Assembly (NCBI RefSeq): GCF_012910955.1
Contig: NZ_WTVQ01000033.1
Coordinates: 1-55,709, forward strand
Length of the DNA: 55,709 nt
Origin: Aromatoleum diolicum
GTDB taxonomy: Bacteria; Pseudomonadota; Gammaproteobacteria; Burkholderiales; Rhodocyclaceae
Direction of reading: 5' to 3'
Below, in pieces: positions 5,941 through 38,196 of the stretch (the first letter of the stretch is position 1; the number at the start of each line of letters is the position of its first letter). The notes beneath the pieces were generated by a model. The model had not been told where the DNA came from, did no database searches, and saw only the letters and a program-made list of their open reading frames with translations. The position numbers and the translations under genes were made by a program.

Positions 5941-6585
5941 TCAGGCGCGACCGAAAACGCGCCGGAAGAAGCTGGCAAGCCGATCGAAGAACACCTTGAA
6001 CACGACTGCGACGACGTTGATCGAATCCTCTTTCTGCGGCTGCGGACGGGGAGGAGTCCGGTTGGCGGTCGGGGCGGCGGCGGGCTCCGTCGAGCCGGGA
6101 TTGGCCGATGCGGCCTCGCTCTCGCGGGGCACTTCCAGCAGCGCGCGCACGTTGCCGACGTACTTCTTGATGATCTGAGCCGAAACCCCTTCGATCATGC
6201 CGCGGCCGACCTGCAGGATGCGGCCGGTGAGGTCGATGCTCGATTCGCAGCGTATTTCGGTGCCGCGGCCGTCCGGGGACGGCGCGAGGCGGGTCAGGAT
6301 GGTGCCGCTGACCGTGCCGCCACCGCGCTCGTTGCCCGATGCCAGCATTTTCACGGTGCGGGTGGCAGGGTCCTTCTCCGTGTAGGTGATCGTGCCCTGG
6401 TACTGGGCGCTCACGGCGCCGATCTTGAGCTTCACGGCGCCGACGAAACTGCGCTCGTCGACGATCTCCGTGAGCGAGGCGCCGGGCATGCACGCGATGA
6501 CGTTTTCCGGGTTGAGCAGAAAGTCCCAAACTGCCTCGACCGGGGCGGCGACCTCGAATTTCTCCTCGATTTGCAGGGCCATCAT
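5941..6585 (-). CDS. CoxG-like SRPBCC-domain protein with C-terminal membrane anchor
   Basis: 214 aa of the CoxG (carbon monoxide dehydrogenase subunit G) family. The SRPBCC/START-like domain occupies about residues 1-150 (PVEAVWDFLLNPENVIACMPGA, GRGMIEGVSAQIIKKYVGN). A Pro/Ala-rich linker follows, then a C-terminal amphipathic or hydrophobic segment (NVVAVVFKVFFDRLASFFRR) of the kind that tethers CoxG to the membrane. The family is linked with molybdenum hydroxylases and with delivering a hydrophobic ligand or electrons at the membrane. Here it is the last gene of the F420 operon, 35 bp after cofGH. That is not its usual place and suggests a role near deazaflavin or quinone chemistry (inference). 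Confidence 0.82.
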   Translation of the reverse strand: MMALQIEEKFEVAAPVEAVWDFLLNPENVIACMPGASLTEIVDERSFVGAVKLKIGAVSAQYQGTITYTEKDPATRTVKMLASGNERGGGTVSGTILTRLAPSPDGRGTEIRCESSIDLTGRILQVGRGMIEGVSAQIIKKYVGNVRALLEVPRESEAASANPGSTEPAAAPTANRTPPRPQPQKEDSINVVAVVFKVFFDRLASFFRRVFGRA

Positions 6586-6620
6586 GTATTCCTTGTAGCG
6601 GTGGTTCGATCAGGCCCGGA

Positions 6621-9017
6621 TCAGGCGGCGCACGCGGCTTGCGTGCTGCAGGGTCCGGTCGGCTGGGGGACGGTCTCCGGCGCGCCCTGGTAGAGCGTCG
6701 TGCGGCGCCACAGGGGGCGACCGATGCCGGAGGCGATGACGTTCATGCTTGCGGCGTCCATCAGCTGGCCATTGGCGCCGCCGGCAGCGCGGGTGATGGA
6801 TTCGTACATCAGCGTGCCGCCCAGGTCGTTCGCGCCCGCCTGCAGGCACAAGGCGGCGCCGTCCGCTCCCATCTTGACCCACGAGGTCTGGACGTTCGGG
6901 ATCAAGGGGTGCAGCGCGAGGCGCCCCACGGCATGCATCAGGACGGCCTCGCGCAGGGTCGGGCCGGAGCGGCTGCGGCCCTTGTGCCACAGCGGCGATT
7001 CCATGTGGACGAAGGGCAGCGGGACGAACTCGGTGATGCCCCCGGTCTCCAGCTGCAGGGTGCGCAGTTTCAGGAGATGGCGCGCCCAGTGCTGTGGCGT
7101 GTCGAGGTGGCCGAACATGATCGTGGACGTGGTGCGCAGGCCGACCTCGTGGGCCGCGCGAACGACGGCGAGCCATTGCGCGGTGTCGAGCTTGTCAGGG
7201 CACAACTGCGCGCGCACTTCGTCATCCAGCACTTCGGCCGCGGTACCGGGCAGGCTGCCGAGGCCGGCGGCCTGCAGGCGGCGCAGGTAGTCCTTCACCG
7301 GCAGGCCCAGCGTCGTGGCGCCGTGCAGGACTTCGAGCGGCGAGAACGCATGGATGTGCATGTCCGGCACGGCGCTGCGCACCGCGGCGAGGATCTCCAG
7401 GTAGGACTCGCCGGTGTAGTGCGGATGGATGCCACCCTGCAGGCACACCTCGGTCGCCCCGCGGTCGCGCGCCTCTAGCGTGCGGCGGGCAACGTCCTCC
7501 GCCGTGAGGCGGTAGGCGGGACCTCGCAGGGCCTCCGTGTTGCGCCCCTTCGCGAACGCGCAGAAACCGCAGCGGTGCTGGCAGATGTTCGTGTAGTTGA
7601 TGTTGCAGTTGGTGACATAGGACACCGCTTCGCCGCAGGTCTCGCGGCGCAGGCGGTCGGCCGCGCCGATCACCGCATCGAAGTCGGCAGCGCGCGCCGC
7701 GAACAGGCGTGCGATGTCGGTTTCGGCGAGCGTGTCGCCCGCCGCCGCCTGGTCGAGAATGCGCAGGACTTCGGGCGAAGGCTGATCCGCCGCACTGGCG
7801 CCGCGGATCACGGAATGAGGCGGCAGTGGCGCGCCCGAGCCCGCGTGCCAGTCGTCGCTGCGGGCGAAGCCTTCCGCGTCGGTGAGGTGCAGGATCGAAT
7901 GGCGAATGCCCGGATCGGTCCAGCGCGCGGCATCGCGGGCGTGGCGCGGCACCAGAGCCAGCCGTTCGACCAGATGGCGGCCTGCCGCCTCGGTGTCGCG
8001 GCGTAGCGCCGCGATGTGCGGCCACGCCGCTTCCGGATTCACGTGGTCCGGCGTCACCGGCGAGATGCCGCCCCAGTCGTTGATGCCGGCTGCTACCAGC
8101 GGCGCGAGCTCACCGGGGCGCAGGTTCGGCGGGGCCTGGATGGACATCCCGGGGCCGAAGATCAGCCGCGCCATCGCAATCGTCCACAACTGCTCGCCGA
8201 GTTCGGGCTCGGGCGCGCGGGCCATCGCGGTGCGTGGCTTGGCGCGGAAGTTCTGGATGATGATTTCCTGCAGATGACCGTGGATGTCGTGCAGTTCGCG
8301 CAGCGCGAGCAGCGCCTCGATGCGCTCCAGGCGCGTCTCCCCGATGCCGATGAGAATCCCGCTCGTCAGGGCCACCGACTGCTCGCCGGCGTGGCGGATC
8401 GTTGCGAGGCGTGCTTCCGGATGCTTGTCGGGGCTGTTCCAGTGCGGGCCGCCGCGTTCGCACAGGCGGGCCGCGGTGGATTCCAGCATGATCCCTATCG
8501 ACGCGGACACGGGGCGCAGCTTTGCGAGATCGGCGGGCGACAGCGTGCCGGCGTTGATGTGCGGAAGCAGGCCGGTTTCGGCATGGATGCGCAGCGCGAT
8601 GTCGGCGACGTAGTCGATCGTCGTGGCGTGGCCCAGGGCAGCCAGACCTTCGCGTGCCGCGGCGTAGCGCAGTTCGGGCTTTTCGCCCAGGGTGAGCAAG
8701 GCTTCGCGGCACCCCGTGCGTGCGCCCGCACCGGCGATGTCGAGCGCTTCTTCGGGACTCAGATAGGCCTGCTGCGCGTGGCGGGGGGACTGCGCAAACG
8801 TGCAGTAGCCGCATGCGTTACGGCACAGCTGGGTGAGCGGGATGAAGACCTTCCGCGACCAGCCCATGGCGCGCCCGTGACCGGCGAGGGTCAGCGCTTC
8901 GGCCGTCTCCAGCAGGGGGCTGAGTTCGTGCTCGGCGGCCAGTTGCGCGGCCTGCGTTGCGGTGAGTCTCAGTCCCGCACGCGCATCGGCGAGGATTCGG
9001 GTGACGCTGTCAGCCAT
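6621..9017 (-). CDS. cofGH: FO synthase, CofG-CofH fusion (FbiC type)
   Basis: 798 aa bifunctional radical-SAM enzyme that makes 7,8-didemethyl-8-hydroxy-5-deazariboflavin (FO), the chromophore of F420, from tyrosine and the ribityl-diaminouracil intermediate of riboflavin synthesis. The N-terminal CofG half carries CRNACGYC (Cys65, Cys69, Cys72). The C-terminal CofH half, from about residue 430, carries CQHRCGFC (about residue 480) in NYTNICQHRCGFCAF. Each half thus has a complete CX3CX2C [4Fe-4S] motif. Length and domain order match actinobacterial FbiC rather than the separate archaeal CofG and CofH. The start at 9017 has an ACGGAG site and overlaps the end of cofC by 49 bp, indicating translational coupling. 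Confidence 0.96.
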   Translation of the reverse strand: MADSVTRILADARAGLRLTATQAAQLAAEHELSPLLETAEALTLAGHGRAMGWSRKVFIPLTQLCRNACGYCTFAQSPRHAQQAYLSPEEALDIAGAGARTGCREALLTLGEKPELRYAAAREGLAALGHATTIDYVADIALRIHAETGLLPHINAGTLSPADLAKLRPVSASIGIMLESTAARLCERGGPHWNSPDKHPEARLATIRHAGEQSVALTSGILIGIGETRLERIEALLALRELHDIHGHLQEIIIQNFRAKPRTAMARAPEPELGEQLWTIAMARLIFGPGMSIQAPPNLRPGELAPLVAAGINDWGGISPVTPDHVNPEAAWPHIAALRRDTEAAGRHLVERLALVPRHARDAARWTDPGIRHSILHLTDAEGFARSDDWHAGSGAPLPPHSVIRGASAADQPSPEVLRILDQAAAGDTLAETDIARLFAARAADFDAVIGAADRLRRETCGEAVSYVTNCNINYTNICQHRCGFCAFAKGRNTEALRGPAYRLTAEDVARRTLEARDRGATEVCLQGGIHPHYTGESYLEILAAVRSAVPDMHIHAFSPLEVLHGATTLGLPVKDYLRRLQAAGLGSLPGTAAEVLDDEVRAQLCPDKLDTAQWLAVVRAAHEVGLRTTSTIMFGHLDTPQHWARHLLKLRTLQLETGGITEFVPLPFVHMESPLWHKGRSRSGPTLREAVLMHAVGRLALHPLIPNVQTSWVKMGADGAALCLQAGANDLGGTLMYESITRAAGGANGQLMDAASMNVIASGIGRPLWRRTTLYQGAPETVPQPTGPCSTQAACAA

Positions 9018-9652
9018 GTCGGGTGGCTCCGTTCGAAGGGGGTGAGGGCCGGCGCACGGCGAGTGCTCCGGGGCAGGTCGTACCAGCTCAATTGCTTGAG
9101 GTCGTGGGGTTCGTCGATGTCCATCGCCAGCCCCGGCCGGTCCACGACGGACGGCACCAGGCCGCAACGCACGGCCTCCGCAAGGTGTGCCGGAAAGCTC
9201 CCGACGCCGAAGTGAAAGCTGAAATCGCTGCCGGTCTTGAGGAAAATGGCATTGGTGCCGCGGCGGTAACGGTCGGGAGCAATGCCGAGCCCCGTGCAGC
9301 GGCCGAGCGCGATCAGGGCTTCCACGTCCGTGCAGGCGAGCAGCGGCAGGTCGGCGTGCAGCACCAGCAGTTCGCTTGCGCCGCGCTTCGCGAGTGTCCG
9401 GGTGCCGGTTGCCAACGAGGCGTTCAGGCCTTCGCCGGGATCGGGCAGGATCAAGATGTCGCGTGCGGTGATTCCGCTCGCGGGCGTGACGAGCGCGATG
9501 CCGTCGATCTGCGGAATGTTTTCCAGCGTGCGTAGCACGCGGTCGAGCATCGCGCCGATCAACCGTCTGCGTTCCGCCGGCGAAAGCACGCCGGCGAGCC
9601 GGCCCTTGCCGTGGGCCGGATCCTTCAGCGGGATGAGTGCCCAGCAGGTCAT
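8969..9652 (-). CDS. cofC: CofC, phospholactate/phosphoenolpyruvate/3-phosphoglycerate guanylyltransferase
   Basis: 227 aa nucleotidyltransferase of the MobA-like fold. It couples GTP to a three-carbon phosphoacid to form the activated side-chain precursor used by CofD. Visible motifs are the N-terminal WALIPLKDPAHGKGRLAGVLSPAERR, with its Lys/Arg-rich GTP-binding loop, the LLVLHADLPLL metal-binding Asp, and DIDEPHDL near the C-terminus. The ATG at 9652 overlaps the cofD stop in an ATGA junction, and the last 49 bp overlap cofGH. Which phosphoacid is used (2-phospholactate, PEP or 3-phosphoglycerate) cannot be read off by eye; it decides which F420 variant is made. Confidence 0.94.
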   Translation of the reverse strand: MTCWALIPLKDPAHGKGRLAGVLSPAERRRLIGAMLDRVLRTLENIPQIDGIALVTPASGITARDILILPDPGEGLNASLATGTRTLAKRGASELLVLHADLPLLACTDVEALIALGRCTGLGIAPDRYRRGTNAIFLKTGSDFSFHFGVGSFPAHLAEAVRCGLVPSVVDRPGLAMDIDEPHDLKQLSWYDLPRSTRRAPALTPFERSHPTWLTASPESSPMRVRD

Positions 9653-10599
9653 GCGATCATCTCCGCGCGCAGGCGCTCGGCGAAGGCGAGGCTCGCGCGT
9701 GCGACGCGCTCGCGGTCGTCGATGTCCTTCATCAGGGTATCGGCCAGGCACACCGGGATGTCGATCTGGTCCGCGAGGGCGGCGTCGCGTTCATCGAGGA
9801 CGAAGCCGTCGATGAGGTCGCCGTAGTGGCGGGCGATCTCGGGGGCGCAGACCGGCAACCCGAGTTCCGCCATGATCTTCGCCGTCGGCCCTTTCACGGC
9901 CGCGCCGTTGATGAGCGGTGATACGGCGATCACCGGCGCTTCCGCGTCACGCAGCGCTTGCCGCAGCCCCGGTACCGCGAGCATGGGCGCGATGCTGAGG
10001 TAGGGGTTCGACGGGCAGATGAGGATGGCCGCCGCGCTGCGGATCGCCGCAACCGCGGAGTGGACCGGTTCGGCCCGTGCGGCACCGTCATAGCGCAGCC
10101 CGGAGACGACCGGCGCGCATTGCCGCCGGACGAAGTAGTCCTGGAAGTCGAGCCGGCCCTCCGTGGTGTCCACGCGCGTGCGCACTGGGGCGTCGGTCAT
10201 GGGCAGAACCTCGGCGCGGATGCCGAGCCGGTGCGCGCAGTCGGCGACGATGGAGCTCAGTTTTTGTCCGCTGTCGAGCCGTCGCGTGCGCTCGATGTGC
10301 ATCGCGAGGTCGGCGTCGCCGAGGCGGAACCATGTCTCGCCGCCCAGGCTCGCCAGCGCCTGCATGAACTGCCACGTTTCGTTGCGACGGCCCCATCCCG
10401 TCTCGGGATTGGCGAGTCCGCACAGGGTGTATAGCACGGTGTCGATGTCGGGCGAGATGTGCAGGCCCAGGTGGCGGAAGTCGTCGCCGGTGTTCACGAC
10501 GACGGTCAGCGTGTCCTGCGGCAAGACGCGCATCAGGCCGTCGGCGAGCTTGGCGCCCCCGACGCCGCCGGAAAGGGCGACGATCCGTCTCGCGCTCAT
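9649..10599 (-). CDS. cofD: CofD, 2-phospho-L-lactate transferase family
   Basis: 316 aa. CofD transfers the phospho-acyl moiety from the GDP-activated precursor made by CofC to FO, giving F420-0 or its dehydro or 3-phosphoglyceryl analogue. The N-terminal phosphate-binding loop LSGGVGGAK (residues 9-17) and VVVNTGDDFRHLGLHISPDIDTVLYTL are the defining signatures; CPSNPYLSI and SPLINGAAVKGP occur later in family order. The start at 10599 overlaps the cofE stop in an ATGA junction, and the stop overlaps cofC in the same way. CofE, CofD and CofC are therefore translationally coupled. Confidence 0.96.
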   Translation of the reverse strand: MSARRIVALSGGVGGAKLADGLMRVLPQDTLTVVVNTGDDFRHLGLHISPDIDTVLYTLCGLANPETGWGRRNETWQFMQALASLGGETWFRLGDADLAMHIERTRRLDSGQKLSSIVADCAHRLGIRAEVLPMTDAPVRTRVDTTEGRLDFQDYFVRRQCAPVVSGLRYDGAARAEPVHSAVAAIRSAAAILICPSNPYLSIAPMLAVPGLRQALRDAEAPVIAVSPLINGAAVKGPTAKIMAELGLPVCAPEIARHYGDLIDGFVLDERDAALADQIDIPVCLADTLMKDIDDRERVARASLAFAERLRAEMIA

Positions 10600-11363
10600 C
10601 GGAACAGGTCCTCCGCAATCGGGCGCACCAGCGCCTGGGCATTCACTTCCGGCGCGTCGTGGCGAGCGCCGCGCACCAGCGCCACCGGCGTGCCTTCCGC
10701 GCCTTCGCCCATCACCAGCGCCGCACCGGCCGCGAGTCCATCTGCCCAGGCGACCTGTGTCACTTCGAGGCGGCGCCCGTACAGGTCGGTCTCGCCGCGG
10801 CGATCGATCAGGGCCGGCAGGCCGGCCGCCCCCAGCGCGATATTGATGACACCGTTGCGCCACGGACGACCGAAGCTGTCGCTCACGATCACTCCGGGCG
10901 CGACGCCAGTCAGCGTGCGCAGGCCGGCGCGCAGCCGGGCCGCGGAGGTGTCGGGGTCGACGGGCAGCAGAAGCGCGCGTTCGGCGCCGTCGCGGCTGTC
11001 GACATTCGAGCGGTCGATGCCCGCATTCGCCATCACGTAACCCAGACGGTGGCGCACGATCAGCACGTGCGGCACCGCGCGGAGCACCTCGTTCGACTCG
11101 GAAAGTACCAGCTCCACGAGCCGCGCGTCCTTGCGGGTGATGGCCGCGAGTTCGAGCGCGCGGGCGGACGGCGTCACCGTGCGCAAGTCGATGAAGCGCC
11201 CCTCGCTTTTCGACACGATCTTCTGCGCGACCACCAGCGCGTCGCCTTCAGTCAGCGTGCTGCCGGACTGCGCGAGCGCCGCAGCGATGAGCGCAGGCAG
11301 GTCGTCGCCGGGGGCGACGGCGGGGATTCCCGCAACGGCCGTGAAGGAGAGCGCCTGGGCCAT
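10596..11363 (-). CDS. cofE: CofE, coenzyme F420-0:L-glutamate ligase
   Basis: 255 aa GTP-dependent ligase that adds gamma-linked glutamates to F420-0. Signatures are EGDALVVAQKIVSKSEGR (residues about 40-57), NAGIDRSNVD, LLPVDPDTSAARLRAGL, VIVSDSFGRPWRNGVINIALGAAGLPAL and DLYGRRLEVTQVAWAD. It is a single-domain, archaeal-length CofE. It lacks the C-terminal nitroreductase-like domain that mycobacterial FbiB uses to reduce dehydro-F420-0. The start at 11363 lies 8 bp after npdG; the stop overlaps cofD (ATGA). Confidence 0.96.
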   Translation of the reverse strand: MAQALSFTAVAGIPAVAPGDDLPALIAAALAQSGSTLTEGDALVVAQKIVSKSEGRFIDLRTVTPSARALELAAITRKDARLVELVLSESNEVLRAVPHVLIVRHRLGYVMANAGIDRSNVDSRDGAERALLLPVDPDTSAARLRAGLRTLTGVAPGVIVSDSFGRPWRNGVINIALGAAGLPALIDRRGETDLYGRRLEVTQVAWADGLAAGAALVMGEGAEGTPVALVRGARHDAPEVNAQALVRPIAEDLFR

Positions 11364-11371
11364 GATGAAAC

Positions 11372-12049
11372 CTAGTCGGCGCAGGCGGCGAGCGTGCCGG
11401 TGATGCGGACCCCGGCGCCGTCGACCGCGTAGGTCTTGTTCATGAAGATCAGGATCGAGGTCAGCGCCTCGGCGGCCGCCGAATTCGCCAGCGCGCCCGC
11501 GTGCAGGCCGCGCAGGCCGGCAGCTTCGGCCAGCCCAACGACCTCGGCGCGCGCGGCCTTGTCGTCGCCGAACACCAGCACGTCGCACTCGACCTCCTCA
11601 TCGGTCGCCAGCTTGTGCGCGGCGACGTTATGGAAGGCCGAGACGAGGCGCACGTCGCCGCCGAGCAATGCCTGGGCACGCAACGCCGCGCAGCCCTCGG
11701 GCGGCAGTTGCACGCGCATGACCTTGGGCGGAACCAGCGGCACAGTGGTGTCGACGACGATCTTGCCGGCGACGACCGGGCGTATTTCCTCGAGCATCGC
11801 CGCCTGCGACGCGAAGGGCACGGTGACGACGACGATATCGGCCAGCTCCGCGGCTTCGCGGTTCGTGCCGGCGGCGACCTCACGTCCGGTCTCGGCGGCC
11901 ATGGCTGCGGCCGCTTCCCGTGCCTTGCCGGCGTCGCGCGAGCCGATTACGACGCGCAGCCCGGCCTTCACCCAGCGCCGCGCCAGCGCCGCGCCGAGGT
12001 GGCCCGTGCCACCGATCACCCCAATGGTCCTGCGTGTTCCGTCCGTCAT
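11372..12049 (-). CDS. npdG: F420H2:NADP+ oxidoreductase (NADPH-dependent F420 reductase)
   Basis: 225 aa Rossmann protein of the Fno/NpdG family, which moves hydride between NADPH and F420. Motifs are IGVIGGTGHLGAALARRWVKAG (residues 8-29), IGSRD with the Arg that selects NADP, ADIVVVTVPF, VDTTVPLVPP and the C-terminal NSAAAEALTSILIFMNKTY. It is the first gene of the npdG-cofE-cofD-cofC-cofGH-coxG operon, so the cell makes F420 and its reductant system from one transcript. The divergent operon begins 213 bp away with acyl-CoA dehydrogenases and an LLM-class enzyme that could consume the reduced cofactor. Confidence 0.94.
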   Translation of the reverse strand: MTDGTRRTIGVIGGTGHLGAALARRWVKAGLRVVIGSRDAGKAREAAAAMAAETGREVAAGTNREAAELADIVVVTVPFASQAAMLEEIRPVVAGKIVVDTTVPLVPPKVMRVQLPPEGCAALRAQALLGGDVRLVSAFHNVAAHKLATDEEVECDVLVFGDDKAARAEVVGLAEAAGLRGLHAGALANSAAAEALTSILIFMNKTYAVDGAGVRITGTLAACAD

Positions 12050-12180: not shown

Positions 12181-12192
12181 GTCCCATTGGAT
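12181..12192. promoter_or_regulatory. Degenerate GTCC-N4-GGA site before the acyl-CoA dehydrogenase operon
   Basis: GTCCCATTGGAT lies 70 nt before the start at 12263, in the 213-bp region divergent to npdG. It matches the dyad at 3429 (read on the other strand, GTCCCATCGGAC) at 10 of 12 positions and keeps the same distance to its gene. It could serve both the F420 and the dehydrogenase operons. Confidence 0.3.
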
Positions 12193-12262
12193 GATGTGCC
12201 GGCGACGGGCGGTCGCGAGAATGCCCCTACCAAAATCCACGGGGCAACTCACTGGACTGCCA

Positions 12263-13378
12263 ATGCAAAACGTATTGCTGCTTTCCGACGAGCAATCGGC
12301 GCTGCAGGAAACTGCCGCGGCATTCCTCGCGGAATTCGCCAATGCCCGCAAGCCGCGGGACGAAGATGCCGCACTGTGGCAGCGGATCGCCGAACTGGGC
12401 TGGCCTGCCGTGCAGGTGCCGGAAGCGCTCGGCGGACTGGGCATGGGGCCGGTCGAACTGGCCCTGCTGATGGAAGAGATGGGGGGGCGGCTGACCCGAA
12501 GCCCCTTCTTCGCATCCGTCGTGCTGGCCCAGACGGCGCTGATCGAGACTGCGGACGCCGCCGCGCAGGAACGCCATCTGCCCGCGCTGGCGGCAGGCGA
12601 GGCGAGCGCGACGCTCATTCTCGCACCAGGCTGCGAGTGGTCGCGGGACGCACTCTCCGTTGGCTGTCGTCGCGACGAGGATGGCTGGGTCTTGAGCGGC
12701 GAGGCGTTCCAGGTGATCGACGACGGCAGCTGCGACGTGGCCTTCGTCGCCGCCCGCCACGCCGACGGGGTCGCGCTGTTCCATGTGCCGGCGGATGCGC
12801 CGGGCGTGGAGCGCGTGGCGCTCGACGTGTGGGATCTCACCCGGCCGCAGATGACGTGGCGCTTCCGCGACCTGCGCTTGCCGCCCGACGCCCGCGTCGA
12901 TGACCCGCAGCGGCTGGATGCCGGCCTCGCGCGTACCGTCGCGCACGCCGCGCTGCAACTGGCGGCGGAGCAGGTGGGCGGCGCCGCGGCCTGCCTCGAA
13001 ATGACAGTCGCCTACACCCGCGAGCGGATGCAGTTCGGTAAACCGGTGGCGAGTTTCCAGGCCGTGAAGCACCGCTGCGCCGAGATGATGTTGCGGCTCG
13101 AAACCGCACGCTCGGCGGTGCGGGGCGTGGCCGCAATCGCGGCGGGGCTCGTGGATGCCGATGAACTCGCCCGCGAAGTCGCGGTGGCGCGGGTGCTCGC
13201 GAACGACGCCTACCGCTACTGCGCCCAGGAAGCGGTGCAGCTCCATGGCGGCGTCGGCTTCACCTGGGAGTACGACCCCCAGCTGCATTTCAAGCGCGCG
13301 CAGTGGGGCAGCCAATGGTTCGGCACGGCTGCGCGCTGGCGCGAGCGCGTCGCCACCCATCTTCTGGACTTTGCTTGA
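12263..13378 (+). CDS. Acyl-CoA dehydrogenase, subunit A of a likely heteromer
   Basis: 371 aa FAD enzyme for alpha,beta-dehydrogenation of an acyl-CoA, passing electrons to ETF. The N-terminal helical domain begins LLSDEQSALQETAAAFL; the C-terminal domain has AYTRERMQFGKPVASFQAVKHRCAEM and EAVQLHGGVGFTWEYDPQLHFKRAQ, which is typical of the short FadE proteins that work in pairs. The next gene is a second acyl-CoA dehydrogenase after a 1-bp gap. In steroid-degrading actinobacteria such adjacent pairs form alpha2-beta2 enzymes for substrates with bulky rings. An upstream ATG at 12191 adds non-homologous residues, so I start at 12263 although its ribosome site is weak. Confidence 0.9.
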   Translation: MQNVLLLSDEQSALQETAAAFLAEFANARKPRDEDAALWQRIAELGWPAVQVPEALGGLGMGPVELALLMEEMGGRLTRSPFFASVVLAQTALIETADAAAQERHLPALAAGEASATLILAPGCEWSRDALSVGCRRDEDGWVLSGEAFQVIDDGSCDVAFVAARHADGVALFHVPADAPGVERVALDVWDLTRPQMTWRFRDLRLPPDARVDDPQRLDAGLARTVAHAALQLAAEQVGGAAACLEMTVAYTRERMQFGKPVASFQAVKHRCAEMMLRLETARSAVRGVAAIAAGLVDADELAREVAVARVLANDAYRYCAQEAVQLHGGVGFTWEYDPQLHFKRAQWGSQWFGTAARWRERVATHLLDFA

Positions 13379-13379
13379 T

Positions 13380-14534
13380 ATGGATCCGATGACCGAAACC
13401 TGTTTTCGCGCCGACGTGGCCGGGTGGCTCGCGCGCGAGCTCAAGGGCGAATTCGCCTGCCTGCGCCATCGCGGCGGTCCCGGCGACGAAGAGGCTTTCC
13501 CGGCGCTGCGCAAGGCGTGGGAGCGCAAGCTCGCCGAGGGCGGCTGGGTCGGCCTGTGGTGGCCGCAGGCGCACGGCGGTCGCGCTTTGCCGCTCGACCT
13601 GCAATTGGCGTTCCACGAGGAATACGTGCGCGCCGGCGGCCCCGGCCGCATGGGGCACATCGGCGAGACGCTGTTGGCGCCGACGCTTATCGAACTCGGC
13701 ACACCGGAACAGCAGCAGCGCTTCCTGCCCGGCATCCGCGAGGGGCGGGAGTTCTGGTGCCAGGGCTATTCCGAGCCCGGCGCGGGCTCCGACCTCGCCG
13801 CGATCACGACCCGCTGCTGGCAGGACGGCGAGGTGTGGCGGGTGCAGGGCCAGAAGGTGTGGACCTCGCTCGCGCACGAATCCGACTGGATCTTCGTGCT
13901 CGCCCGCAGCACGCCGGGTTCAGTCGGCCGGGAGGGGCTCACCTTCCTGCTGATGCCGTTGGCGCAGCCGGGTATCGAGATCCAGCCCATCCGCCAGATG
14001 ACGGGCGAGGCCGAGTTCAATGCGGTGTTCTTCGACGGCGCCGCAACCGATGCCGGTTGCATCGTCGGCAAGCCGGGCGAGGGCTGGCGCGTGGCGATGG
14101 CGCTGCTCGGCTTCGAGCGCGGCGCGTCCACGCTCGGCCAGCAGATGCACTTCGTGCACGAAATGCAGTTGATCGTCGATGCCGCGCTGGTCACCGGCGC
14201 GGCGCGCGATCCCGCCCTCCGCGAGCGCATCGCCGACGCGTGGATCGGCCTGCGCGCCCTGCGGCACAACGCGCTGCGCATGCTGGCCGGCAAGCCCGGC
14301 GGCGTGGGCCCCGAATCGCTGATGTACAAGTACGTGTGGTCCAACTGGCACCGCAGCCTCGGTCAGCTCGCGATGGACGTCCTCGGCCCGGCCGGCGACA
14401 TCCGTTCCGACGACCCGACGATCCGGCGCCTGCAGCAGGTGTTCTTCTTCTCGCGCGCCGACACGATCTACGCGGGCACCAATGAAATCCAGCTCAACAT
14501 CATCGCCGAGCGCGCGCTCGGGATGCCGCGCTGA
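13380..14534 (+). CDS. Acyl-CoA dehydrogenase, subunit B of a likely heteromer
   Basis: 384 aa. Family signatures include GYSEPGAGSDLA, KVWTSLAHESDWIFVLARS, and the C-terminal SRADTIYAGTNEIQLNIIAERALG. In medium-chain dehydrogenases the last motif reads IYEGT and its Glu is the catalytic base; here it is IYAGT, so this subunit lacks a base at that position. The base may come from elsewhere in the subunit or from the partner encoded 1 bp upstream, as in FadE26-FadE27-type heterotetramers. Start at 13380, with Met at 13389 as an alternative. Confidence 0.9.
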   Translation: MDPMTETCFRADVAGWLARELKGEFACLRHRGGPGDEEAFPALRKAWERKLAEGGWVGLWWPQAHGGRALPLDLQLAFHEEYVRAGGPGRMGHIGETLLAPTLIELGTPEQQQRFLPGIREGREFWCQGYSEPGAGSDLAAITTRCWQDGEVWRVQGQKVWTSLAHESDWIFVLARSTPGSVGREGLTFLLMPLAQPGIEIQPIRQMTGEAEFNAVFFDGAATDAGCIVGKPGEGWRVAMALLGFERGASTLGQQMHFVHEMQLIVDAALVTGAARDPALRERIADAWIGLRALRHNALRMLAGKPGGVGPESLMYKYVWSNWHRSLGQLAMDVLGPAGDIRSDDPTIRRLQQVFFFSRADTIYAGTNEIQLNIIAERALGMPR

Positions 14535-14558: not shown

Positions 14559-15428
14559 ATGCGCTTTGTCCTGCAACTCGGCTTCAGCAACTACCGCAAC
14601 TACACGGCGATCGCGCGCGCGGCGGAGGAAAGCGGCTGGACCTGGCTGTCGATGCCCGACAGCCTGTTCTTTCCGCAGCGCACCGAATCCGAATATCCGT
14701 ACGCCGAAACCGACGCGATCCGCCAATACCTGGAGCATTCGGACTTCATCGAGCCCTTCGTTGCGATGTCCACGATGGCCGCCGTGACGACCCGCCTGCG
14801 CTTCTATCCGGGCGTACTCAAGGTGCCGGTGCGCCAGCCGCTGATCCTCGCGAAGATGCTGAGCTCGCTCGCGGTCATGACGAACGGCCGCATCGCCCTC
14901 GGCGCCGGTCTCAGTCCGTGGAAGGAGGATTTCCAGTACAACGGCGCGAACTTCGAAAAGCGCGGCGAGCTGATGGACGAGTGTATCGAGGTCCTGCGCG
15001 GCGCGATGGCGGGCGAGTTCTTCGAATTCCATGGCCGGCACTACGACTTCGGCCCCCTGCGCATGCGTCCGGTGCCGCCGCAGCCGGTTCCCATCCTCGT
15101 CGGCGGGCACAGCAAGCCCGCGCTGCGGCGTGCCGCACGGGTCGGGGACGGCTGGGTGTCGGCCAACACCGATCTGCCGACGCTGAAGGACATGATCGGC
15201 ACGATCAACGGCTTCCGCGAGGAGTTCGGCACTACCGCGCACGAGTTCCAGTTCCACGGCATCGATTTCAGCGCGCGCACGGTCGACGATTTCCGCCACC
15301 TGGCCGAGATCGGCGTCACCGATGCCGGCGTGCTGCCCTGGGATACCCGCAGCGACCCGATGGACGTGCAGGGCCAGATCGACGCGATCCGCCGGTTCGG
15401 CGACGAGGTCATCGCGAAGATGGGCTGA
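14559..15428 (+). CDS. LLM-class flavin/F420-dependent oxidoreductase
   Basis: 289 aa luciferase-like TIM barrel. The sequence begins MRFVLQLGFSNYRNYTAIARAAEESGWTWLSMPDS and contains GRIALGAGLSPWKEDFQYNGANFEKRGELMDE and PVPILVGGHSKPALRRAARVGDGW, the hallmarks of the family that includes F420-dependent reductases and dehydrogenases. FMN-dependent monooxygenases share the fold, and sequence alone does not separate them safely. Its operon is divergent from the F420 biosynthesis operon, which favours F420. A good AAGGAAA site precedes the start. A likely role is redox of a cyclic ketone, alcohol or enoyl-CoA in the same pathway as the two upstream dehydrogenases. Confidence 0.85.
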   Translation: MRFVLQLGFSNYRNYTAIARAAEESGWTWLSMPDSLFFPQRTESEYPYAETDAIRQYLEHSDFIEPFVAMSTMAAVTTRLRFYPGVLKVPVRQPLILAKMLSSLAVMTNGRIALGAGLSPWKEDFQYNGANFEKRGELMDECIEVLRGAMAGEFFEFHGRHYDFGPLRMRPVPPQPVPILVGGHSKPALRRAARVGDGWVSANTDLPTLKDMIGTINGFREEFGTTAHEFQFHGIDFSARTVDDFRHLAEIGVTDAGVLPWDTRSDPMDVQGQIDAIRRFGDEVIAKMG

Positions 15429-15431: not shown

Positions 15432-16454
15432 ATGGCCGACGGCGTCCCATCGATGCTCGATCTCGCTGGCCTGCGCGAACTGCGCTTTGCTTCGGCCGCG
15501 GGAGCGGGTGGTTGGCCGTTCGCGTCCGACCCGTTTCTAGTGGTCGCGCCCGTCGGCGTGGAACTCGGGGACGAGGATGCAATCGCCGCTTGGCTCGCGG
15601 TCCAGCCCTGCCCGGTGATCGGGATTGCGGCGAAGACCGGGGCCGTCACCGCGGCGCGCGCAGTGCTCGCCGCCTGCGATGTCGTAGTGGACGACATTGG
15701 CGATGTCGCGCCGATTGTCGCCAACATCCGCAAGGCCCCGCTTGCCGCGATGACGCTCGTGCAGGTGCTGCGCGTGACTGCCGGCATGCCGCCCGAACAG
15801 GCGCTCGTCGTCGAGTCGCTGGCCTACGCGACCCTGCAGGCTGGCCCCGAATTTGCGGCGTGGTCGCGCGCGAATCCGTCGGCGCCGCACCGGATCGTCG
15901 CGGAGGAGGGGCCGGCGGTACGCATCGAGCGCGATGGCCCGCGGCTCGATCTGGTGCTGAACCGTCCGCGCAACCGCAATCCGATGTCCGTCGAGATGCG
16001 CGATGCCCTGTGCGAAGCGCTGCAGTTCGTCGTCACCGACGACTCGATCGCTTCGGTCCGCCTCTCTGGCGCCGGCGCCTGCTTCAGCACCGGCGGCGAG
16101 GTGCGCGAATTCGGCACCGCTCCCGATCCGGCCACAGCCCATGCCGTGCGCAGCCAGCGACTGCCCGCGGCGGTGCTTCTCGCCTGCGCAGAACGCGTGA
16201 GCGCCCATCTGCAGGGTGCCTGCATCGGTTCCGGGATCGAGCTTCCGGCCTTCGCCCGTCGCGTCACGGCCGCGCGCGACACCTTCATCCAGCTGCCGGA
16301 ACTCCGCTTCGGCCTCATCCCCGGCGCGGGCGGCTGCGTCAGCCTGCCGCGCCGCATTGGCCGACAGCGCACGGCCTGGCTTGCGCTGTCGATGCGTCGG
16401 ATCAATGCGGCGACCGCACGCGAGTGGGGCTTGGTCGACGAGATTGTCGATTAG
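15432..16454 (+). CDS. Enoyl-CoA hydratase/isomerase-family protein with extended N-terminus
   Basis: 340 aa. The C-terminal part (about 150-340) is a recognisable crotonase: LDLVLNRPRNRNPMSVEMRDALCEAL, oxyanion-hole segment GACFSTGGEVREFG, and both Glu residues of hydratases in GSGIELPAFA and QLPELRFGLIPGAGG. The first about 145 residues are unusual; APLAAMTLVQVLRVTAGMPPEQALVVESLAYATLQAGPEF looks like the C-terminal helices of a crotonase, suggesting a degenerate tandem domain. It begins 3 bp after the LLM gene and ends 7 bp before a convergent gene. It likely hydrates the enoyl-CoA made by the upstream dehydrogenase pair. Confidence 0.82.
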   Translation: MADGVPSMLDLAGLRELRFASAAGAGGWPFASDPFLVVAPVGVELGDEDAIAAWLAVQPCPVIGIAAKTGAVTAARAVLAACDVVVDDIGDVAPIVANIRKAPLAAMTLVQVLRVTAGMPPEQALVVESLAYATLQAGPEFAAWSRANPSAPHRIVAEEGPAVRIERDGPRLDLVLNRPRNRNPMSVEMRDALCEALQFVVTDDSIASVRLSGAGACFSTGGEVREFGTAPDPATAHAVRSQRLPAAVLLACAERVSAHLQGACIGSGIELPAFARRVTAARDTFIQLPELRFGLIPGAGGCVSLPRRIGRQRTAWLALSMRRINAATAREWGLVDEIVD

Positions 16455-19287: not shown

Positions 19288-20802
19288 TCAGGCCGCCTGC
19301 GGTGTGCTGCGGAAGTCTTCCTTCAGCAGCCGGCGCAGGACCTTGCCCATCTCGTTGTACGGCAACTCCTCGCGGAAGCGGATCGCGGTGGGTACGCGCG
19401 ACGAGCGCAGATGCTGCTTCACCCAGTCCTGCAGATCCGCCGGTTCGACGCGTTGTCCGTTGCGCGGCACAACTACCGCAGCGACCGCCTCGCCCCATTG
19501 CTCGTCCGGCATCGCCACGACGGCGACGTCGGACACCGCGGGGTGGCTGCGCAGCACGTCCTCGATCTCGCCCGGGGAGATGTTCTCGCCGCCGCGCACG
19601 ATCACGTCGTCGGCCCGCCCGTCGAGATACAGGAAGCCGTGGCTGTCGAGGTAGCCACGGTCGCGCGTCGGGAACCAGCCCTCGGCATCCAGCAGGCTGC
19701 CGACGCCGAGATATTCGCCGGACACCTGCCCGCCGCGCACATACACGTCACCCACGTCCTCGGCACCCATCGCGCGGCCGTCCTCGCCGCGGATGGAGAT
19801 CTCCACCGTGGCCAGCGGCTTGCCGACCGAGTTGAGACGCCGTCGGATCGCCGGATCGTCGCTGCCGAACGCGATGCGGTGGTCGTCGGGGTCGAGCAGG
19901 CAGATCGTCGAACTGGTTTCGGTGAGCCCGTACGCATTCGTGAAGTCGACCGCGGGCCACAGGCCCATCACCTTCTCGATCACCTGCGGCGGCATCTTGC
20001 CGCCTCCGTAGGCGATCGCCTTCATCGCGGGCAGATCACCGGACTCCCCGCTCTCCTCGAGATGCTCCATCACGCGGGAGAGCATCGTCGGCACCACGAA
20101 GGCGTTCGTGATCGCTTCGTCGCGGCACAGCCTGAGCCAGGTCGCGCCGTCGAAATTGGGCAGCTGCACCATGCGCCGGCACGCGTAGGTCGAGCTCAGC
20201 ACCGCCGAAATGCCCGCGATGTGATACGGCGGCACCGCCACCAGTGTCGCGTCGGCCTCGTCGGCGCCGGCGAAATCGACCGTGCCGAGGATGTAGCTCA
20301 TCAGGTTCTCGTGGCGCAGCACCGCGGCCTTGGGCGCGCCGGTCGTGCCGCTGGTGAAGAGCTGCACCGCGACGCTGGACGGCTCGCCCGGCGCCGCGTC
20401 GGCCTGCGCGCCGCCGCCCAGCGCGAGGGCCAGGAAATCCTCGCGCGACATCACGCGCACGCCCTCCGGCACCTTCAACGGGGCGACGTAGGCGGGGTCC
20501 GCGATCAGGAAGGCCGGTTCGATGCGCGCCAGCAGGTCGCCCAGCTCCGGCACCGTCAGGCGGTAGTTCATCGGCACGTACGGCACGCCCGCATACGCCG
20601 CGGCATACACGGCAATCGGCGCCGCGGGGCTGTTGATATCCAGCAGGCCCACGTAGCGGCAGCCGCTGTCGCGTATCGCCGCAGCGGCGGTGCGGGCCGC
20701 CCGCAGGAGCTGCGTATAGCTCAGGTTCGTCGCGCCCGAGGTCACGGCGAAGCGGTCCGGATGGCAGTCGGCCGCCATCTCCAGGGCCATCACGATATTC
20801 AT
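19288..20802 (-). CDS. AMP-dependent acyl-CoA synthetase/ligase
   Basis: 504 aa ANL-superfamily ligase that activates a carboxylic acid with ATP and CoA. The phosphate loop LFTSGTTGAPKAA is at residues 149-160; further motifs are VPPYHIAGISAVL, NAYGLTETSSTI, GWFPTRDRGYLD, GRADDVIVRGGENISPGEIE and the C-terminal catalytic Lys in ELPYNEMGKVLRR. Length and motif order are those of the short bacterial acyl-CoA synthetases next to catabolic clusters. It starts 4 bp after a small unknown gene. The acid is unknown; aromatic, alicyclic and terpenoid acids are all possible. Confidence 0.92.
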   Translation of the reverse strand: MNIVMALEMAADCHPDRFAVTSGATNLSYTQLLRAARTAAAAIRDSGCRYVGLLDINSPAAPIAVYAAAYAGVPYVPMNYRLTVPELGDLLARIEPAFLIADPAYVAPLKVPEGVRVMSREDFLALALGGGAQADAAPGEPSSVAVQLFTSGTTGAPKAAVLRHENLMSYILGTVDFAGADEADATLVAVPPYHIAGISAVLSSTYACRRMVQLPNFDGATWLRLCRDEAITNAFVVPTMLSRVMEHLEESGESGDLPAMKAIAYGGGKMPPQVIEKVMGLWPAVDFTNAYGLTETSSTICLLDPDDHRIAFGSDDPAIRRRLNSVGKPLATVEISIRGEDGRAMGAEDVGDVYVRGGQVSGEYLGVGSLLDAEGWFPTRDRGYLDSHGFLYLDGRADDVIVRGGENISPGEIEDVLRSHPAVSDVAVVAMPDEQWGEAVAAVVVPRNGQRVEPADLQDWVKQHLRSSRVPTAIRFREELPYNEMGKVLRRLLKEDFRSTPQAA

Positions 20803-20806: not shown

Positions 20807-21115
20807 TCAGTCCGAGGAGGGCAGGGCCTTGGCCTGCTTTACCGCGAGCGCCTGGCCGTCGATCGACAGGCTGCCCTTGCCACCCTTGGTGCACAGCAGT
20901 TCGGTCGCGTCCTGCTCGTCCACGTAGCGCTTGCCCACCAGTGTGCCCTGCGCGAAGGCCTCGTCCGGCACCGTGCCGAGCTTCTCACCGTCCATCGCAA
21001 TCATCTCCGTGCCCCCGCAGCACAACAACATTGCCGCGGGGCGGGTGCGGATGACCATGACTTCGGTATCGCAGACTGCGCTCTTCAGGCGCGTTCCGGC
21101 TTTGAGGGTTTTCAT
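20807..21115 (-). CDS. Small conserved-looking protein of unknown function
   Basis: 102 aa, not assigned to a family. It begins MKTLKAGTRLKSAVCDTEVMVIR and has four Cys residues (C15, C32, C33, C75), including an adjacent pair in LLCCGG, which could bind metal or form disulfides. There is no signal peptide or membrane segment. It is the first gene of the minus-strand operon that continues, 4 bp later, with the acyl-CoA synthetase, CaiB protein and amidohydrolase, so it may assist acyl activation. The start at 21115 has an AAGGAGC site. Coding is supported by this site, tight operon spacing and composition. Confidence 0.75.
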   Translation of the reverse strand: MKTLKAGTRLKSAVCDTEVMVIRTRPAAMLLCCGGTEMIAMDGEKLGTVPDEAFAQGTLVGKRYVDEQDATELLCTKGGKGSLSIDGQALAVKQAKALPSSD

Positions 21116-21470
21116 CGATGCTCCTTTTCATGGGCCAGCGCGTCATCCGGCCTGCGATGCAATTCGGCGGATGCGCATATGGGGGAAACCGGTTCGGATC
21201 CGATCCGCGTGCACCGGCCCTCATCCGCGGATGCAGGCCCGACACGTTGATTTGAATCGGATTCTGGTCGACGGAAATGCCCCCGAACGCCGGCTGGCCC
21301 GAATTGCGCCCGCATTGGCCCGATCAGAAACGCAGTGCTCCCGGCCCGTAACCGTAATTTCCCTATCGTGCTTGCGTAGGCCGGATCTGCCCGCGATCAA
21401 TGCGCGGGGCGATCCGGCACCCGCCCCGATCCGCTGGATCTCCGCATCCGCCCATGGAGTGAAGCCCGCC
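21116..21470. promoter_or_regulatory. 355-bp divergent intergenic region
   Basis: Separates the small-protein/ligase operon (minus) from the CaiB/NMO/etfB operon (plus), so at least two promoters should lie here. I see short palindromes AACCGGTT (21187-21194) and ATCCGCGGAT (21223-21232) and a GGATCC-GATCC block between them. None matches the dyads elsewhere in the window. No gene is evident. Confidence 0.4.
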
Positions 21471-22703
21471 ATGAAAAACACCGTTCCGCCGCTCGCCAGC
21501 CTGCGCGTCATCGAAAGCTCGATCCTCGGGCCCGCAGCCATCACCACCGCGCTCGCCGATCTCGGCGCCGAAGTCATCAAGGTCGAAACGCCGGCCGGCG
21601 ACTACATCCGCGAGATGACCTGGCCGATCATCGAGGGGGTGTCGCTGATGCACTACCACCTCAACCGCGGCAAGAAGAGCATCGCGCTCGACCTCAAGAC
21701 CGAGGCCGCACGGCGCATCTACCGCGACCTCGTGCGCGACGCCGATGTCGTCATCGAAGCGTCCAAGCCGGGCGCGCTCGCCAGGTATGGGCTCGGCTAC
21801 GAAGATCTGCGCGCGATCAACCCGAAGATCGTCTTCTGCACCGTCTCCGGCTACGGCATGACCGGCCCCTACAGGGACATGCCCTCGCACGGCATCGCCT
21901 ACGACACCTGGTGCGGCGCCGTGAAGCCCGCCTATGACGAAGAAGGCTTCTGCTACATCCCCGAGCACGTCGGCATCGGCATCAACGCCGCGCCGCTGTT
22001 CGGCGGCCTCGGCGTGCTCGCCGCGGTGATCCGCGCACGCGAAACCGGCGAAGGCTGCTTCATGGAACTCGCCCAGAGCGACGCTGCCGCCGCCTTCGAC
22101 TGGTACCGCAGCGAAAGCCACATGGCCTATGCGCGCCCGGAAGCGGTGGTCACCGGCAACAAATCCGACAACTGGGTGCGCCGCCCGGTCGCCACCGCCG
22201 GCATGAAGGAAGGCGTGCGCTACCAGATGTATGAATCGGCCGACGGCCATGTCCTTTTCATGGCCTCCGAGCAATCGCTGTGGAAGAACTTCTGTGCCGG
22301 CGTCGGGCGCATGGACCTCTTCGACAAGTGGCCCGGCTCGAAGTACGCCGACCACGCGCGCGGCAACCGCGAGCTGCAGGCCATCCTGCGCGACATCTTC
22401 AAGGCCCGCACGACCAAGGAATGGCTCGCCTTCGGCGTCGAGGCCAACACGCCCATCGCGCCGGTCAACACCCCGCAGAACATCGTCGACGACCCGCAGT
22501 TCCGCGCCCGCTTCAGGATCCTCCCGCACGAACGCCACGGCGCCGACATGCTCGGCTTTCCCGTGCAGTTCGTCGGCGAGGAGCTGCCCGAACCGTCGAA
22601 GGCGCCGACCGTCGGCGAGCACCGCGAGGAAGTCCTGCGCGACGTGCTCGGCTACGACGCCGGGACCATCGACGCGCTGACGCAGGAAAAGGCGTTCGGC
22701 TGA
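21471..22703 (+). CDS. CaiB/BaiF-family protein (possible loss of catalytic Asp)
   Basis: 410 aa. The Rossmann-like N-terminus (LASLRVIESSILGPAAITTALADLGAEVIKVETPAGDYIREM), YHLNRGKKSIALDLKTEAARRIYRDLV and VSGYGMTGPYRD define the class III CoA-transferase family. In canonical members a GD-x-x-G motif supplies the Asp that forms the aspartyl-CoA intermediate. By eye the equivalent stretch here is GIGINAAPLFGGLGVLAAV, without an Asp. It may be a racemase-like or non-catalytic member, or use another residue. The start at 21471 gives the standard N-terminus; a longer upstream reading frame is not homologous. Confidence 0.88.
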   Translation: MKNTVPPLASLRVIESSILGPAAITTALADLGAEVIKVETPAGDYIREMTWPIIEGVSLMHYHLNRGKKSIALDLKTEAARRIYRDLVRDADVVIEASKPGALARYGLGYEDLRAINPKIVFCTVSGYGMTGPYRDMPSHGIAYDTWCGAVKPAYDEEGFCYIPEHVGIGINAAPLFGGLGVLAAVIRARETGEGCFMELAQSDAAAAFDWYRSESHMAYARPEAVVTGNKSDNWVRRPVATAGMKEGVRYQMYESADGHVLFMASEQSLWKNFCAGVGRMDLFDKWPGSKYADHARGNRELQAILRDIFKARTTKEWLAFGVEANTPIAPVNTPQNIVDDPQFRARFRILPHERHGADMLGFPVQFVGEELPEPSKAPTVGEHREEVLRDVLGYDAGTIDALTQEKAFG

Positions 22704-22853: not shown

Positions 22854-23951
22854 ATGAGCAACCCGTTGCACACCCAACTATGTGACAAGCTCGGTATCGA
22901 ATATCCGGTGGTCGCCTTCACGCACTGCAAGGACGTTGCCGTCGCCGTCATCAACGCCGGCGGCTTCGCCGTGCTGGGCGAGGCCCTGCATACGCCCGAC
23001 CAGATCGCCGCGGACATCAAGTGGATCCGCGAGCGCATCGGCGGCAAGCCCTTCGGCATCGATCTCGTGCTGCCGTCCTCGGTGCCCGAGGAAAAGACCG
23101 TCGACGAACTCCTCGCGATGATCCCGCCTGAACAGCGCGCGTTCGAGCAGTCCATCAAGCGCAAATACGACGTGCCCGATCCCAAGATCGCGCCGGACAT
23201 CCACCACTGGGGCGGCCTCGACCAGAAGCGCGCGCTCGATCAGCTCGACGTCGTGTTCGACGAACGCGTCCCGGTCTTCGCCTCCGGGCTCGGCTCCCCG
23301 GCCTTCCTGCTCAAGCGCGCACACGAACTGGGCATGCAGGTGTGGGGCCTCGTCGGCAAGCCCAGGCAGGCGAAGAAGCAGATTGCCGCCGGCACCGACG
23401 TCATCATCGCGCAGGGCTACGACGCCGCCGGCCACACCGGCAACATCGGCACCTTCTCCATCGTGCCGCAGGTCGTCGATGCGGCGCGCGGCACCGGGGT
23501 TCCGGTCATCGCCGCGGGCGGCGTCACCACCGGCCGCCACCTTGCCGCCGCCCTCGCGCTCGGCGCCGACGGCGTGTGGACCGGCTCACTGTGGCTCGCC
23601 TCGCGCGAATCGGACGTCAACCTGCCGCTCAAGGAACGCCTCATCGAGGCCGAGACCGAAGACACCGTCTACTCGAACTGCATCTCCGGCTACACCATGC
23701 GCACCACGCGCTGCCCGTGGCACGACGAATGGGGCAGCGACGCCGCCCCGGCCGTCCTCAAGCCGCCGCTGCAGATGATCCTCTCGTCCAACTACATCCA
23801 GGGTTCGCTCGACTACCAGCGCAAGGACCTGATGACCGAGGCGGCCGGGCAGGGCATCCACTACGTCACCGAGATGAAGCCCGCCCGCCAGATCCTGTCC
23901 GACATCGTCGAGGAGGCCCTTGATGTCTTCGACCGCTTTGCAAGCGAGTGA
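22854..23951 (+). CDS. Nitronate monooxygenase / 2-nitropropane dioxygenase-like flavoprotein
   Basis: 365 aa FMN-binding TIM barrel of the NMO/NPD family. Family markers are AVINAGGFAVLGEALHTPDQI, IIAQGYDAAGHTGNIGTFSIVPQVVDA with the conserved His, and VPVIAAGGVTTGRHLAAALALGADGVWTGSLWLAS. Many members in CoA-thioester clusters are not nitronate oxidases but NAD(P)H-dependent enoyl reductases or quinone reductases. A strong AAGGAGCC site precedes the ATG. The next gene overlaps its end by 29 bp. Together with EtfB downstream it may handle electrons from acyl-CoA dehydrogenation. Confidence 0.88.
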   Translation: MSNPLHTQLCDKLGIEYPVVAFTHCKDVAVAVINAGGFAVLGEALHTPDQIAADIKWIRERIGGKPFGIDLVLPSSVPEEKTVDELLAMIPPEQRAFEQSIKRKYDVPDPKIAPDIHHWGGLDQKRALDQLDVVFDERVPVFASGLGSPAFLLKRAHELGMQVWGLVGKPRQAKKQIAAGTDVIIAQGYDAAGHTGNIGTFSIVPQVVDAARGTGVPVIAAGGVTTGRHLAAALALGADGVWTGSLWLASRESDVNLPLKERLIEAETEDTVYSNCISGYTMRTTRCPWHDEWGSDAAPAVLKPPLQMILSSNYIQGSLDYQRKDLMTEAAGQGIHYVTEMKPARQILSDIVEEALDVFDRFASE

Positions 23952-24252
23952 CGCCAGCGAGGCCGCGGCCGGCTACCGCTCCGGCTTCGAAGCGCACTTG
24001 CGCGGCCGCATCGCCGAGTGCGACGGCGGCCGTCACGTCGCCGGCACCAAGTTCGCCGGCCGGCAGGAATTCACCGGCACCCTCACCGGCGCCTACCGCG
24101 ACTTCGGCCCCTATCCGTGGCGCTGGTACCTGCTCGCCAAGCTCACGCGCAAGCCCGAAGGCTTCGCGCACGAGGCCGTCTGGTGCGACGCCGACAGCCT
24201 CACGCTGATCGGCCAGGAAATCCCCGATCCCCGCAATCCCGTTCAGGAGTAA
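23923..24252 (+). CDS. Small protein of unknown function between NMO-like protein and EtfB
   Basis: 109 aa, not recognised. The C-terminal part (GTKFAGRQEFTGTLTGAYRDFGPYPWRWYLLAKLTRKPEGFAHEAVWCDADSL, given as two stretches: GTKFAGRQEFTGTLTG and AYRDFGPYPWRWYLLAKL) is rich in aromatic residues. There is no signal peptide. The ATG at 23923 follows GAGGAGG within the end of the NMO-like gene, so it is translated by coupling; a TTG one codon earlier is less likely. It ends 5 bp before etfB. The position suggests a partner of the flavoprotein or the ETF. Confidence 0.7.
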   Translation: MSSTALQASDASEAAAGYRSGFEAHLRGRIAECDGGRHVAGTKFAGRQEFTGTLTGAYRDFGPYPWRWYLLAKLTRKPEGFAHEAVWCDADSLTLIGQEIPDPRNPVQE

Positions 24253-24257
24253 TCGCC

Positions 24258-35994: not shown

Positions 35995-36024
35995 CGAACC
36001 CAGCAGCGCGAACGGAGAACGCTC

Positions 36025-38183: not shown

Positions 38184-38196
38184 GCGGGGCCGACGC

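Follow-up and report, generated by a model that had tools for sequence, protein, structure and literature searches.

The window analysed here, 55,709 nucleotides of Aromatoleum diolicum DNA (contig NZ_WTVQ01000033.1 of RefSeq assembly GCF_012910955.1), holds genes for making and reducing the cofactor F420 in company with genes that point to steroids. This combination suggests that F420 is produced for a reductive step in steroid breakdown. The F420 genes npdG, cofE, cofD, cofC and fbiC, the last a CofG-CofH fusion, form a contiguous row on the minus strand (12049-6621), as an initial annotation of the window had described, and the products of all five score above the curated cut-offs of their NCBIfam models (Table 1). 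With gene starts that we chose among the available start codons, npdG and cofE are 8 bp apart, ATGA overlaps join cofE to cofD and cofD to cofC, and cofC overlaps fbiC by 49 bp, so the overlaps reported earlier are confirmed. From this spacing a single transcript is plausible. In FbiC the separate CofG and CofH domain models also exceed their own NCBIfam cut-offs, and two CX3CX2C radical-SAM motifs are found, at positions 65 and 479 of its 798 amino acids. The cut-off of TIGR03550 is exceeded once in the genome, by this protein.

In these protein families FbiC makes FO, CofC and CofD add a C3 unit, CofE adds glutamates and NpdG serves in reduction. The operon would work in the same way: FO from FbiC would receive its C3 unit from CofC and CofD, in the form of 2-phospholactate or phosphoenolpyruvate (PEP) rather than 3-phosphoglycerate (3-PG), CofE would attach the glutamates, and NpdG would reduce the finished F420 with NADPH.

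The type of C3 unit is indicated by residues of CofC. Its best match in the PDB is 7p97, the CofC of Mycetohabitans, and when it is aligned to 7p97 and 6bwg a Gly stands at the position of Mycetohabitans S162, with Leu at the positions of both M91 and C95. S162, M91 and C95 are described as diagnostic of 3-PG CofC (PMC8764529). With Gly, Leu and Leu there, the window CofC probably supplies a C3 unit of the 2-phospholactate or PEP kind. The 3PG-F420 pathway, whose CofC has Ser or Thr in place of this Gly, was rejected on these residues; the Mycetohabitans system is otherwise similar in being Gram-negative and in having no reductase domain. The mycobacterial pathway (FbiD, FbiA, FbiB, FbiC) has the FbiC fusion in common with the window, as well as the CofC Gly of PEP and 2-phospholactate enzymes, but the window CofE stands alone, with no FbiB C-terminal nitroreductase domain fused to it. 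No FbiB-type C-terminal reductase domain was found in the operon, where CofE shows PF01996 only; a separate reductase elsewhere in the genome was not searched for. One would be needed if PEP were used.

Which proteins might use the reduced cofactor? Facing the operon on the plus strand are two acyl-CoA dehydrogenases (ACAD1 and ACAD2) and an LLM-class enzyme, and further along lies a Ddn-like protein, an arrangement already recognized in the initial annotation and backed by the Pfam and TIGRFAM scores in Table 1. The LLM is the main candidate for a user of F420H2 and the Ddn-like protein the second. The best PDB match of the latter is Ddn itself, the 'deazaflavin-dependent nitroreductase' (E 1.9e-27), and PF04075 is matched by no other protein of the genome. 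A further TIGR03619-type LLM lies within the atc gene row of all four relatives examined (G054, Thauera terpenica, Azoarcus sp. Aa7 and Aromatoleum anaerobium), 1.7-1.8 kb before the gene for the FAD subunit; the copy in G054 scores 203.2 against a cut-off of 166.9. The window contig stops just before the matching place. As a side observation, at least one LLM-like reading frame occurs in 23 of 80 fbiC neighbourhoods among the matches listed (L004-L083), many of these neighbourhoods being short.

The atc genes themselves lie at the far end of the window. Positions 51770-55622 encode a clustered three-subunit enzyme of the xanthine-oxidase family, with molybdenum, iron-sulfur and FAD domains. 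The same family includes AtcABC (PMC5554518), which acts as 1-testosterone hydratase/dehydrogenase in the anaerobic 2,3-seco steroid pathway and is the published marker of that pathway. We searched 11 genomes with the large subunit. Nine genomes, among them that of the window, yield a match of at least 72%, and in the remaining two, Thauera sp. 28 and Thauera sp. 2A1, no match exceeds 40%. T. terpenica 58Eu has one match only (82% over residues 4-804 of 807), on the contig that bears its fbiC. PMC9980454 counts this strain as a carrier of atcABC but not as one of kshAB. Because the sole match lies in a published atcABC carrier, the window protein is predicted to be AtcA by orthology and elimination, by way of T. 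terpenica and not of the Steroidobacter sequence.

Other evidence points to steroids as well. The genome encodes KshA (202 bits) on another contig (C92; loci L133 and L190), which also bears an extradiol dioxygenase with 268 bits against the HsaC model, for which the cut-off is 450. The presence of KshA and this HsaC-like protein suggests that the genome also has an aerobic 9,10-seco route. Much of the gene region of the window is common to Azoarcus sp. Aa7 and T. terpenica, published degraders of bile acids and androgens (PMC8399759, PMC5554518). Given the atcABC ortholog, the KshA in the genome and the region common to these two organisms, the window looks like one for steroid degradation of the anaerobic type.

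The initial annotation had placed the F420-dependent step in the breakdown of an alicyclic or terpenoid acid. The CoA ligase, CoA-transferases, acyl-CoA dehydrogenases and crotonases of the region would be compatible with an alicyclic or monoterpenoid acid, and the carrier T. terpenica was described on oxygen-containing monoterpenes, to go by the title of Foss and Harder (1998) as cited in PMC5554518. However, the three lines of evidence just given indicate steroids instead, and we consider an alicyclic or monoterpenoid substrate very improbable.

The association of F420 with these genes was followed through two samples, 150 genomes of the window's family and 120 of the family of a metagenome-assembled genome titled Steroidobacteraceae (G006). 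In the first sample 25 genomes matched atcA at E 1e-100, and the nine with at least 70% identity were counted as orthologs, the next best having 39%. KshA was matched in nine genomes at E 0.001; four with a best match of at least 170 bits were counted (G000, which is the window's genome, G054, G032 and G149), the other five remaining below 26 bits. The sample also contains 17 genomes with fbiC, nine with an LLM ortholog (at least 56%) and 12 with PF04075.

Among the nine atcA carriers of the window's family, eight have fbiC (9 of the 141 others), eight have the LLM ortholog (1 of 141) and all nine have the Ddn-like family PF04075 (3 of 141). The carrier that lacks matches to fbiC and the LLM, G142, has its atcA in two pieces and a genome that is 81% complete. 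Counted by genus, fbiC is found in four of five genera with atcA and in five of the 63 others, and the LLM in four of five against none of 63. The second family has 39 genomes with fbiC, 10 with the LLM and six with an atcA ortholog (best match 58 to 75%), and all six carry both fbiC and the LLM. Over both samples fbiC is present in 19/19 LLM carriers and in 37/251 genomes without an LLM ortholog. Fisher values for such contrasts are descriptive only, as they take no account of kinship among the genomes. A link with the aerobic steroid genes alone is not favoured, as seven of the nine atcA carriers in the window's family gave no KshA match.

The genes are often physically linked as well. In seven of nine atcA-bearing genomes examined, atcA and the fbiC copy most like that of the window share a contig, at distances of 8 to 57 kb; the distance is 43 kb in G054, a complete genome of the same genus. 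Linkage is common rather than universal, since fbiC lies far from atcA in G093 and G139. In the second family, the ends of the LLM and atcA genes are at most about 150 bp apart in four of six carriers (G006, G173, G225, G229); the two genes are far apart in G187 and lie on different contigs in G205. In an FbiC tree (quick method) the 12 of 96 rows that we labelled as steroid-linked are clustered and do not form one clade (3 changes). L013 received this label from its neighbours alone, and L012 and L154 represent a single gene. The tree is a weak test, since the atcA carriers G093, G139, G037 and G141 were left unlabelled. The shared occurrence of fbiC, the LLM and the Ddn-like gene, with one another as well as with atcA, and their frequent linkage support a tie between F420 and a catabolic pathway here. 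The catabolic half of the initial annotation's proposal is thus supported, while its substrate class needs revision.

One could also suppose that both candidate users, the LLM and the Ddn-like protein, work with FMN or represent side activities, and that F420 serves some other purpose while its genes merely travel with the region. Fold comparison is tied in this respect, the best Z values of the LLM being 29.3 to the F420-dependent Mer and 28.8 to bacterial luciferase, and F420 and FMN enzymes are intermixed among its PDB sequence matches. An FMN-type LLM monooxygenase is known from aerobic progesterone degradation in Caenibius tardaugens (PMC12239570), and fbiC is present in many genomes without the region. 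That said, the LLM scores above the cut-off of TIGR03619, a model named 'F420-dependent', and fbiC accompanies it in every carrier. The C. tardaugens enzyme is alike in being an LLM-fold enzyme for steroids and unlike in being a Baeyer-Villiger monooxygenase that presumably depends on a flavin reductase, in a report whose main text makes no mention of F420; an oxygen-using monooxygenase would not suit an oxygen-independent pathway. We regard the FMN alternative as quite unlikely.

Our own interpretation, in which we place moderate confidence, is that a complete operon for making and reducing F420 lies in a steroid region of the 2,3-seco (AtcABC) type, and that the LLM and the Ddn-like protein would take hydride from F420H2 to reduce either the steroid nucleus or a ring-opened derivative of it. 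It has to be weighed against a broader role, in which the F420 step would belong to general steroid or bile-acid breakdown and AtcABC would be nearby since such genomes hold several steroid modules. For example, F420 could act in a hydroxysteroid or C/D-ring step adjacent to the acyl-CoA dehydrogenases, or in reducing a double bond after a SnoaL-type dehydratase. Several observations count for this and against a special tie to the 2,3-seco branch. At the thresholds used, atcA went unmatched in five LLM carriers (G032, G200, G213, G228, G250), and because of them the role of F420 may lie in steroid breakdown more generally. One of them, G032, has the LLM ortholog and five KshA matches with no atcA at E 1e-100. 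In G228 and G250, which have no atcA at E 1e-200, the LLM is accompanied by SnoaL and OYE relatives, acyl-CoA dehydrogenases, a flavin reductase and relatives of DmpG and FAAH. A review likewise ascribes the cofCDE cluster of Sterolibacterium to the breakdown of HIP (PMC6678751). Against the broader role stand the near-restriction of the LLM to atcA carriers in the window's family, the missing KshA matches in most of them, and the LLM genes that abut atcA in the second family. We consider it possible, although on balance unlikely.

Within the 2,3-seco interpretation, our best single guess is that the step reduces a conjugated 3-oxo-ene. PMC6678751 (section 13) gives delta-4 reduction as the C=C reduction that precedes AtcABC, and according to a 2021 review of bile-acid degradation the enzyme for it, at the entry to the 2,3-seco pathway, is unknown (PMC8399759). 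We picked the delta-4 bond for these two reasons. F420H2 might then, by way of the LLM or the Ddn-like protein, reduce delta-4 of a 3-oxo-1,4-diene such as androsta-1,4-diene-3,17-dione before AtcABC hydrates ring A. This is a tentative proposal that we would rate as rather unlikely, and two proteins of the window weigh against it, as do the five LLM carriers listed above in which atcA went unmatched at those thresholds. The first is OYE2, a candidate for a rival enone reductase that is BaiCD-like but below the cut-off of that model; its gene adjoins the Ddn-like gene in eight genomes (the window's, G054, G001, G002, G008, G093, G139 and G124). The second is the NMO-family protein, which is 88-96% conserved in relatives, among the most conserved of the region, and lies beside atcABC in seven genomes.

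F420 genes in Proteobacteria are already known, and the reason for their presence is among the unanswered questions of a 2021 review (PMC8498797). The initial annotation had called F420 sporadic in Gram-negatives, which understates its frequency in Proteobacteria: fbiC occurs in about a third of the second family, as counted above, and 76 of 80 loci have proteobacterial titles among the matches listed in the fbiC scan. The gene order npdG-cofE-cofD-cofC-fbiC is not new either, being the same in 41 of 80 relatives among the matches listed. All five families of the proteobacterial gene set (cofC, cofD, cofE, fbiC, npdG) are above cut-off in the window, whose set differs from the others in lying within a steroid-type catabolic region and in being followed by a CoxG-like gene.

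Not every carrier of the steroid region has the five-gene operon in it. The row there is npdG-cofC-fbiC in Azoarcus sp. Aa7, A. evansii, T. terpenica, L018 and G054 (loci L005, L006, L017, L018 and L186); cofD and cofE were seen elsewhere for Aa7 (L010), and the other four were not searched for them. We also observed a second F420 operon outside the steroid gene set in A. anaerobium (L004, L007) and in Azoarcus sp. Aa7 (L005, L010).

The nearest precedent is in Sterolibacterium denitrificans. Its clusters acd3-acd5 have atcABC, with an IpdC-like protein, CoA-transferases, a thiolase and an enoyl-CoA hydratase in one run, and cofC, cofD and cofE adjoin an acyl-CoA synthetase (PMC6678751). The likeness is one of printed gene lists and not of sequence, and unlike here the cof genes appear, uncommented, in a figure legend, F420 being named once in the main text. 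Another parallel, by description only, is Rv3520c of M. tuberculosis, a predicted F420-dependent oxidoreductase in a list of cholesterol genes (PMC6429209). Our literature search, largely outside subscription journals, found no assignment of F420 to anaerobic steroid degradation, and F420 genes were named in such a steroid cluster only in the legend mentioned above. What is new is therefore the link between F420 and anaerobic steroid degradation, with candidate enzymes. The region joins two questions from the literature, the purpose of proteobacterial F420 and the identity of the delta-4 reductase. If our proposal is true, the delta-4 step gets its enzyme and F420 in Proteobacteria gains a defined catabolic role.

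Table 1. Genes of the window and of the atc row in its relatives (scores in bits, given against the model cut-off)
Feature	Position	Strand	Models and remarks
CoxG-like/SRPBCC gene	5941..6585	-	PF06240; starts 35 bp after fbiC, ends row
fbiC, CofG-CofH fusion (FO synthase), 798 aa	6621..9017	-	NF006687 1067.4 vs 1018
cofC, guanylyltransferase, 2-phospholactate/PEP type predicted from residues	8969..9652	-	TIGR03552 137.3 vs 105
cofD, 2-phospholactate (or analogue) transferase	9649..10599	-	TIGR01819 313.2 vs 257.45
cofE, F420-0:L-glutamate ligase, stand-alone, 255 aa from chosen start	10596..11363	-	TIGR01916 271.3 vs 180.65
npdG, NADPH-dependent F420 reductase	11372..12049	-	TIGR01915 181.7 vs 149.8; first gene of operon
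Acyl-CoA dehydrogenase 1 (ACAD1)	12191..13378	+	PF00441/PF02771
Acyl-CoA dehydrogenase 2 (ACAD2)	13155..14534	+	PF00441/PF02770/PF02771; true start probably later
LLM, predicted F420-dependent oxidoreductase	14559..15428	+	TIGR03619 187.9 vs 166.9
Crotonase-family protein (ECH1)	15432..16454	+	PF00378; accompanies LLM and CoxG in relatives
AMP-forming acyl-CoA ligase	19288..20802	-	PF00501; adjoins LLM in several relatives
Type III CoA-transferase	20931..22703	+	PF02515; true start probably later
NMO-family flavoprotein, FabK/IpdC-like by name only	22854..23951	+	PF03060; TIGR03151 162.7 vs 453.1
ETF beta-like protein	24018..25046	+	PF01012; true start probably later; follows NMO-family gene
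Two type III CoA-transferases, thiolase-like protein, ChsH2-type OB protein, crotonase	34813..40617	+	Pfam; make-up resembles printed Sterolibacterium steroid cluster
Ddn-like FDOR-A protein	43689..44207	+	PF04075 106.2 vs 22; TIGR00026 96.7 vs 46.35
OYE2, OYE/2,4-dienoyl-CoA reductase-like flavoenzyme	44105..46297	+	PF00724; BaiCD model 313.7 vs 825; overlaps Ddn-like gene
Predicted atcA ortholog, molybdenum-binding large subunit	51770..54193	-	PF20256/PF02738
AtcABC-type enzyme, iron-sulfur subunit	54218..54712	-	PF01799/PF00111
AtcABC-type enzyme, FAD subunit	54747..55622	-	PF00941/PF03450; contig ends directly after
Second LLM of atc row (relatives)	L188:15904-16827, L134:5759-6682, L138:5884-6807, L142:5900-6883		TIGR03619-like

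Among the remaining genes, the CoxG-like gene is probably co-transcribed with fbiC and is also found 3' of fbiC in four other loci (L004, L005, L006 and L186). It perhaps has a role in molybdoenzyme maturation and may serve that of AtcABC. In T. terpenica and in locus L016 a gene of this kind lies near the LLM and ECH1. The Pfam annotation finds five type III CoA-transferases in the window.

At the opposite end from atcABC, positions 38-3427 hold a row of OYE, SnoaL, SDR and SDR genes. Azoarcus sp. Aa7 has a SnoaL protein with 94% identity to that of the window; the 7-alpha-hydroxysteroid dehydratase Hsh2 of this organism has been published (PMC8399759), and our guess is that the window protein is Hsh2.

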